Shown here: piece after piece, positions 20,722 to 58,674 of the stretch
How positions within the stretch are numbered: the first letter of the stretch is position 1
How the letters are laid out: each line of letters begins with the position of its first letter
From: Thermobrachium celere DSM 8682
Lineage (GTDB): Bacteria > Bacillota > Clostridia > Clostridiales > Caloramatoraceae
Reading direction: 5' to 3'
Assembly (NCBI RefSeq): GCF_000430995.1
Contig: NZ_HF952018.1
Span: 89,070 to 153,069, forward strand
Length of the DNA: 64,000 bases
The notes under the pieces: model-generated
Database searches by the model: none
Told to the model about the DNA's origin: nothing
Seen by the model: the letters and a program-made list of their open reading frames with translations, nothing else
Translations under genes and position numbers: made by a program

Positions 20722-20744
20722 ATAATATTGAAAAGTGAATATAT

Positions 20745-20935
20745 GCGTCAAAGGTGCTATTTAATAGCTTAATAGGGAAAGTGGTGAAAATCCACTGCAG
20801 CCCCCGCTACTGTAGACGGAGACGAATCCTAACCACTGGGAAACTGGGAAGGTAGGAGGAGGATGACCCGTGAGCCAGGAGACCTGCCTTTGATGTGCTA
20901 ATCCTTCGGAGGGAAGGGAATGGCAAAGCGTAAAC
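20745..20935 (+). ncRNA. Cobalamin riboswitch
   Basis: The conserved core is present: the AAAGGTGC start, GGGAAAGTGGTGAAAATCCAC, GCAGCCCCCGCTACTG, the GGAGACGAATCC segment, a long variable arm, GTGAGCCAGGAGACCTGCC (the B12 box) and the closing segment near 20895-20935. It precedes terminators and the whole cobalamin operon, so adenosylcobalamin binding should promote termination. Confidence 0.95.
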
Positions 20936-57002: not shown

Positions 57003-57030
57003 TTGAATTTTATTTTTTAAGTGATAAAAT
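57003..57030 (+). promoter_or_regulatory. Promoter of the structured RNA unit
   Basis: TTGAAT (57003-57008), 16 bases, TAAAAT (57025-57030) with TGA before it (extended -10). Transcription would begin near 57037, just ahead of the first stem. Confidence 0.55.
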
Positions 57031-57036
57031 AAATTT

Positions 57037-57155
57037 CGTTAAGGTCATCTGACAGCCAAGCTTGGAGGTCGGGTGGTCTTGAAAAAAGAGGCAGACATTT
57101 ACTTATCAAGGGTAAGTGTAGGCCGGTACCAAAATGATTGGTACCGGCCTTTTTG
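57037..57155 (+). ncRNA. Unidentified structured RNA, riboswitch-like or small RNA
   Basis: About 119 bases that can fold into three hairpins. Stem 1 pairs 57043-57053 with 57068-57078 (11 pairs, several G-U) and encloses CCAAGCTTGG (57056-57065). Stem 2 pairs CATTTAC (57096-57102) with GTAAGTG (57112-57118), extended by GGC (57090-57092) with GCC (57122-57124). Stem 3 is the terminator. The GGC-GCC pairing competes with the terminator stem, as in riboswitches. It does not match cobalamin, TPP, SAM, purine, glycine or c-di-GMP cores known to me. No protein is encoded. Confidence 0.6.
57121..57155 (+). terminator. Terminator of the structured RNA unit
   Basis: A perfect 10-bp stem GGCCGGTACC/GGTACCGGCC (57121-57130 with 57140-57149), 9-base loop, then TTTTT. 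Much more GC-rich than its surroundings. Confidence 0.92.
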
Positions 57156-57202: not shown

Positions 57203-57288
57203 TTGACAGCCTAAGGCGATGAGATTATGATATATTTGAATATTATGATATTACGATATTTTGACTTTATGTATTAAAAAGATAAAAC
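57203..57288 (+). promoter_or_regulatory. Tandem promoters of the atp operon
   Basis: P1: TTGACA (57203-57208), 17 bases, TATGAT (57226-57231). P2: TTGACT (57261-57266), 16 bases, TAAAAC (57283-57288). Both lie downstream of the structured RNA terminator, so the operon need not depend on read-through. Confidence 0.6.
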
Positions 57289-57327: not shown

Positions 57328-57699
57328 ATGGTTGATGAATTTATTTTTAGCTTCATTTTAATAAAACTTAAATTTTCTTTTTATATATTTTTATTATTTA
57401 TAATTTTATTATTTGTTTTAGGAAATAAAATGTTTTTATCTTATACCTTAGGATATTTAATAGGAGTTGCCAATTTCATTGTTCTATCATTATCAACAAA
57501 CTATATCATAAAAAAAGAAATTAAATACCCTAAGTTAACACAATTTCTATTTTTTACATTAAGAATTATTGTAGTTTCTTTGATTCTTGCAGAGGCAGTA
57601 TCAAAGGGACATAATGTTTTTACTTTGTTTTTAGGTTTTATGGTATTAAATATATCTATAAAGTTAAGTGCTTATTTAGAGTGTAGAAGGGAGGGATAG
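57328..57699 (+). CDS. atpI: ATP synthase I-like protein
   Basis: 123 residues with four membrane helices and a basic middle loop. AtpI helps assemble the c-ring. The sequence is poorly conserved, and the call rests on size, topology and its position as first gene of the operon. The ribosome binding site is weak (GGTGGTG), which fits low expression. It is 1 base from atpB. Confidence 0.8.
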   Translation: MVDEFIFSFILIKLKFSFYIFLLFIILLFVLGNKMFLSYTLGYLIGVANFIVLSLSTNYIIKKEIKYPKLTQFLFFTLRIIVVSLILAEAVSKGHNVFTLFLGFMVLNISIKLSAYLECRREG

Positions 57700-57700
57700 C

Positions 57701-58672
<972 letters not shown>

Positions 58673-58674
<2 letters not shown>

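Follow-up and report, generated by a model that had tools for sequence, protein, structure and literature searches.

The locus upstream of the ATP synthase genes

The window, by which we mean the whole stretch of 64,000 nucleotides of Thermobrachium celere DSM 8682 DNA that was analyzed, contains an F-type ATP synthase operon with atpI as its first gene. A sequence-only reading of this DNA had proposed a structured RNA of no identifiable family, equipped with its own promoter and terminator, in front of this operon. The extended -10 promoter, both stems and the terminator were found where they had been placed, and so was a separate atp promoter further downstream. The features of the locus are the following (window coordinates):

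57003-57030, + strand, promoter P1: TTGAAT (57003-57008), a 16-nt spacer and TAAAAT (57025-57030) preceded by TG, i.e. an extended -10 promoter; TGATAAAAT
57039-57082, + strand, stem 1: begins where the transcript is predicted to start; 18 consensus pairs
57053-57068, + strand, module 1 (C-AG-CC..GG-AG-G): a 2x2 AG/AG loop (57054-57055 / 57066-57067) beneath the CCAA/TTGG apex
57083-57089, + strand, A-rich linker: variable, of unconserved sequence and unequal length across the homologues
57090-57094, + strand, 5' half of module 2 (GGC-AG): unpaired in the terminated form, predicted to pair with 57120-57124 in the antiterminator form
57095-57119, + strand, stem 2 hairpin: 10 pairs
57120-57124, + strand, 3' half of module 2 (AG-GCC): the base of the terminator left arm and putative switch segment
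57120-57155, + strand, intrinsic terminator: 13-pair stem (57120-57150) followed by a T-rich tail
57203-57231, + strand, second promoter P2 (TTGACA-17-TATGAT): a strong site 3' of the terminator and before atpI
57328-57699, + strand, atpI: first gene of the ATP synthase operon

Stem 1 exceeds the 11 base pairs that had been assigned to it. In the window, 15 lower pairs are followed by the 2x2 AG/AG internal loop and the CCAA/TTGG pairs. When the window copy and a diverged copy from Fonticella tunisiensis (see below) were compared with Rfam at gathering and at permissive thresholds, no family was assigned; the permissive search of the region returned low scores alone, well under the family thresholds. 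An atp-associated or Caloramator motif is likewise not mentioned in the main texts of the consulted surveys of newly found structured bacterial RNAs. The sole Rfam match at gathering level in the 64-kb window is a cobalamin riboswitch at 20735-20905 (+ strand, 125 bits).

Structural conservation of the RNA

The minimum free energy of region 57037-57155 amounts to -54.5 kcal/mol as compared to -28.9 +/- 3.4 kcal/mol for dinucleotide-preserving shuffles (z -7.5), and none of 200 shuffles was equally stable. All statements on conservation are based on six sequences from two genera. In their alignment, which was fitted to a covariance model and is therefore biased toward the structure, both partners have changed in 15 of the 42 pairs, 95.2% of the cells are paired and the covariation score is 0.398. 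These pairing and covariation values were reached by none of 500 shuffles, and slid controls remained far below them. Covariation is strongest in stem 1, where 10 of 18 pairs have changed on both sides, while stem 2 mainly displays one-sided G-U changes (both sides changed in 1 of 10 pairs). The loop of stem 2 varies in sequence and length, the conserved bases being located in internal loops instead. Module 1, i.e. the AG/AG loop together with the flanking C-G and CC/GG pairs, is unchanged in all six sequences. In Fonticella the terminator is kept with two compensatory pairs, and the sequence of its left arm is retained.

G-U combinations occupy 36 cells of the six-sequence alignment versus a single cell with A-C. 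Thus, the element works as an RNA made from the + strand and not as a DNA palindrome. The sequence-only reading had made its proposal depend on the conservation of the stems in relatives, and there they are indeed kept and covary. Region 57037-57155 harbors a conserved, uncatalogued and narrowly distributed structured RNA.

Distribution and gene neighborhood

By nucleotide search, each of the five Caloramator genomes carries the RNA and none of 12 other genomes of the family does. The diverged copy of Fonticella tunisiensis, the nearest carrier outside Caloramator (names were assigned by protein-based matching), was recovered with a covariance model made from the five Caloramator sequences. 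A second model, comprising these five and the Fonticella copy, did not convincingly detect the RNA anywhere else among 218 genomes of the order and samples of 391 genomes from the class and 398 from the phylum, in searches run with stricter filters that may lose weak matches. Upon inspection, weak model matches in other genera (L023-L027, L032 and L117) turned out to be terminator-only or other chance matches devoid of the modules, and four marginal matches from the class (L081-L084), checked for the module alone, had none at the match site. Phage and plasmid collections contained no nucleotide match to the RNA, a search for AtpB in viral contigs was empty, and no RNA family reached its gathering score in the atpB regions (20 loci) of relatives. 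In Caloramator sp. mosi_1 (L012 / L058 / L062) the AtpB frame is interrupted by stops and falls into two overlapping pieces, which may reflect either a genuine lesion or a sequencing error.

In each of the six carriers the RNA is located directly 5' of atpI-atpB, and it was never met elsewhere. The upstream neighbor is a thiolase gene in the window and in G013, and a wecB-like epimerase gene in G012, G014, G015 and Fonticella. As the upstream neighbor varies and atpI-atpB is constant, the RNA goes with the atp genes and its adjacency to the thiolase gene is incidental; of the thlA-atpI setting described earlier, only the atpI side belongs to the conserved context.

Promoters and the origin of the transcript

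A P1 promoter of the AAGTGnTAAAAT type precedes atpI in 5 of 5 Caloramator genomes, in four genomes of another genus of the family, g2 (G001-G004), and in G008; the corresponding sequence of Fonticella is CTGATAAAAT. In g2 and G008, P1 is present at atpI, yet the RNA is absent. Most economically, P1 would be an old promoter that the family has used for atp, and the RNA an addition to its leader, either evolved there or acquired, in the lineage of Caloramator and Fonticella. At the g2 loci (L056, L057, L059 and L060) a conserved short hairpin (CCGATATC/GATATCGG) and, immediately 5' of atpI, a T-rich stretch lie downstream of the P1-type promoter. The CCGATATC hairpin is possibly a minimal attenuator or an mRNA-stabilizing hairpin.

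Judged by eye, a P2-like sequence is present in the Caloramator relatives. Between terminator and atpI of Fonticella there is no site comparable to P2, and the sole other promoter-like site in this interval is weak. Because P1 also precedes atpI in genera without the RNA and is the only strong promoter in Fonticella, the RNA is probably a leader of the atp operon rather than a free small RNA. On the other hand, the good P2 site in the window means that the P1 transcript of Caloramator could be a free RNA or could govern part of the atp expression.

Both a trans-acting small RNA and an added control layer had been considered from the sequence before. With P1 being the atp promoter shared by the family, the cis-acting leader is the likelier of the two. 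A stand-alone small RNA of about 120 nt, located in front of atp by chance and using the invariant GGCAGAC linker as a target-pairing seed, would agree with the self-contained unit of promoter and strong terminator, with the second atp promoter downstream and with the single-stranded state of the invariant bases in the terminated fold. We nevertheless consider it rather improbable, as P1 is a family-wide atp promoter that is there even without the RNA, Fonticella has no strong second promoter, the RNA has not been encountered apart from atpI, and the predicted antiterminator described below accounts for the invariant linker bases.

A predicted antiterminator and a duplicated module

The terminated fold leaves two invariant clusters unexplained: GCAG of the linker, which is the sole invariant run of linker bases in the six sequences (the rest of the linker is variable), and AGGC in the left arm of the terminator. 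When transcripts extending up to the left arm were folded, the minimum free energy structure was predicted to be an antiterminator in all six homologues. In this structure, GGC at 57090-57092 would pair with GCC at 57122-57124 and thereby extend stem 2 across a 2x2 AG/AG loop. The competition of the terminator left arm with the base of stem 2, which had been noticed in the window sequence alone, is thus predicted for each nascent homologue. With the right arm present, the terminated form is calculated to win by 3-7 kcal/mol in the six sequences in the absence of a factor, and the two folds are predicted to be mutually exclusive. The outer antiterminator pairs do not show covariation: two of them never vary and the third, outermost one is U-U in Fonticella.

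The AG/AG loop formed in the antiterminator has the same flanking C-G pair as the loop in stem 1, and both copies can be described by the general form C-AG-N-C / G-N'-AG-G. The second copy is split in the terminated fold. Among 776 comparable C-G-closed 2x2 loops of the window, 25 (about 3%) are AG/AG, and the duplication in one sequence is therefore no more than suggestive and could be due to chance. The persistence of the module in all six sequences is the stronger point.

The paired module has 100 sequence matches in the own genome. Those with a good inner helix beyond the atp locus were located in coding sequence, in an rRNA-like repeat or in a T-box leader, and a second regulated operon with the paired module in its leader was not found in this genome. 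At about 1420-1610 of L112 (G000:C32 near 744988), a T-box-like leader with GGGTGGTACCGCGGACAGACC and a terminator precedes a long ORF. The GCAGGCTGAAATTCAGTAGGC hairpin of this leader probably represents the S-turn of a T-box stem II that is similar to the AG/AG module by chance. A conserved leader ORF is absent from the six sequences, an ORF with Shine-Dalgarno sequence and start codon being present in the window and Fonticella alone.

It might also be envisaged that the locus contains a plain insulating terminator and an mRNA-stabilizing 5' hairpin without any regulation, and relatives lacking the RNA do have terminators or stable hairpins between P1 and atpI. This explanation appears unlikely to us, since it leaves the invariant AG/AG loops, the GCAG of the linker and the left arm retained in Fonticella unaccounted for.

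Comparison with known regulatory RNAs

Few RNA switches are known for the control of F-type ATP synthase operons. The left-arm sequence AGGCYGGTAYC loosely recalls the T-box sequence AGGGUGGNACC. Unlike in T-box leaders, UGGN is absent in five of the six sequences (the left arm has CGGU there), a specifier stem I is lacking, the leader ahead of the terminator is short (about 85 nt) and there is no Rfam match.

RAT hairpins contain internal loops and are found upstream of sugar genes. As with the RAT antiterminator of the BglG/LicT systems, which overlaps a terminator (PMC3369931), the putative atp antiterminator is a hairpin that overlaps its terminator and contains internal loops; RAT differs in being a single element of about 30 nt and, judged by eye, has no sequence match to the atp RNA.

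In the dual-hexaloop elements bound by ANTAR proteins (eut, nas, ami), the first copy is always folded and the second is mutually exclusive with the left side of the terminator (PMC3369931, PMC8934654). The atp RNA also has two copies of an element, the second of which is, by predicted folding only, exclusive with the terminator. However, the ANTAR elements are hexaloops with A1 and G4 on mini-hairpins, whereas here AG/AG internal loops are embedded in long stems, and the gene context is ATP synthase. A conserved pair of hexaloops with these A1 and G4 residues was not found in the six sequences. Attenuation by an ANTAR-type or another known antiterminator protein, as a special case of an attenuator, would follow the same logic, in which one element is constitutive and its duplicate overlaps the terminator (PMC3369931, PMC8934654), and one ANTAR protein gene is present in each of the six carriers. 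We judge it to be very unlikely, given that the defining A1/G4 hexaloops are missing, that ANTAR genes also score above the cut-off in five genomes of the family without the RNA, and that CAT_RBD proteins do not track the RNA (none was found in G014, a carrier). An example of these single ANTAR-domain protein genes is G000:C36:27114-27266.

Two of the residues that usually serve as Na+ ligands are presumably replaced in the c subunit (58420-58674), Q by T and S by A, which counts against an RNA that senses Na+. A riboswitch for Na+ (or Li+) is the least probable explanation that we considered: the Na+-I (DUF1646) class brought up by the sequence-only reading does precede some ATP synthase genes, acts via transcription termination and likewise has two helical domains ahead of the terminator (PMC9337991), but no Na+ or Li+ model matched either of the two diverged copies (window and Fonticella) up to an E-value of 10 in the permissive Rfam search, the conserved clusters of Na+-I occupy the loop of its helix P2 and the base of its helix P1 (PMC9337991), which differs from the placement of conserved nucleotides in the atp RNA with its unconserved stem 2 loop, and the description of Na+-I (PMC9337991) contains no duplicated module, of which the atp RNA has one.

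A model for attenuation of the atp transcript

Overall, the reading that we favor, with somewhat more confidence than doubt, is that the RNA is the 5' leader of the P1 atp transcript and acts as a transcription attenuator with a factor that recognizes the duplicated module. The order of promoter, leader, intrinsic terminator and gene is kept in the genomes bearing the RNA. By default, the hairpin at 57120-57150 would form and RNA polymerase would halt after about 120 nt. During synthesis of the left arm, the linker GGC and the GCC of the arm could pair across the AG/AG loop, extending stem 2 to the antiterminator, in which the C-AG-N-C / G-N'-AG-G module of the permanently folded stem 1 would occur again. 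This module might be recognized by a ligand or an RNA-binding protein, which would probably use stem 1 as its initial contact or loading site and, once bound, would stabilize the antiterminator so that the polymerase reads through into atpI-atpB. We infer that such a factor exists and that the RNA switches in vivo in this direction. Against the attenuator it can be held that Caloramator may not need P1 for expressing atp, since P2 is located after the terminator and could deliver atp mRNA without involving the switch, that the outer antiterminator pairs lack covariation, and that the terminator is predicted to be more stable by 3-7 kcal/mol without a factor.

More tentatively, the atp RNA might represent a new riboswitch class with two C-AG-N-C / G-N'-AG-G modules, the second one formed in the antiterminator only, by which a metabolite of the energy status or an ion would set the transcription of the F-type ATP synthase in thermophilic clostridia. 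This proposition is speculative, and a ligand other than Na+, be it a different ion or an energy-related compound, is possible.

As the RNA is short and has few predicted key bases, the hypothesis is directly testable. If true, it would add a recognition module, i.e. duplicated AG/AG internal loops, that is absent from the Rfam library searched. An RNA working in the way that is outlined here would link a signal to the expression of ATP synthase in thermophilic clostridia.
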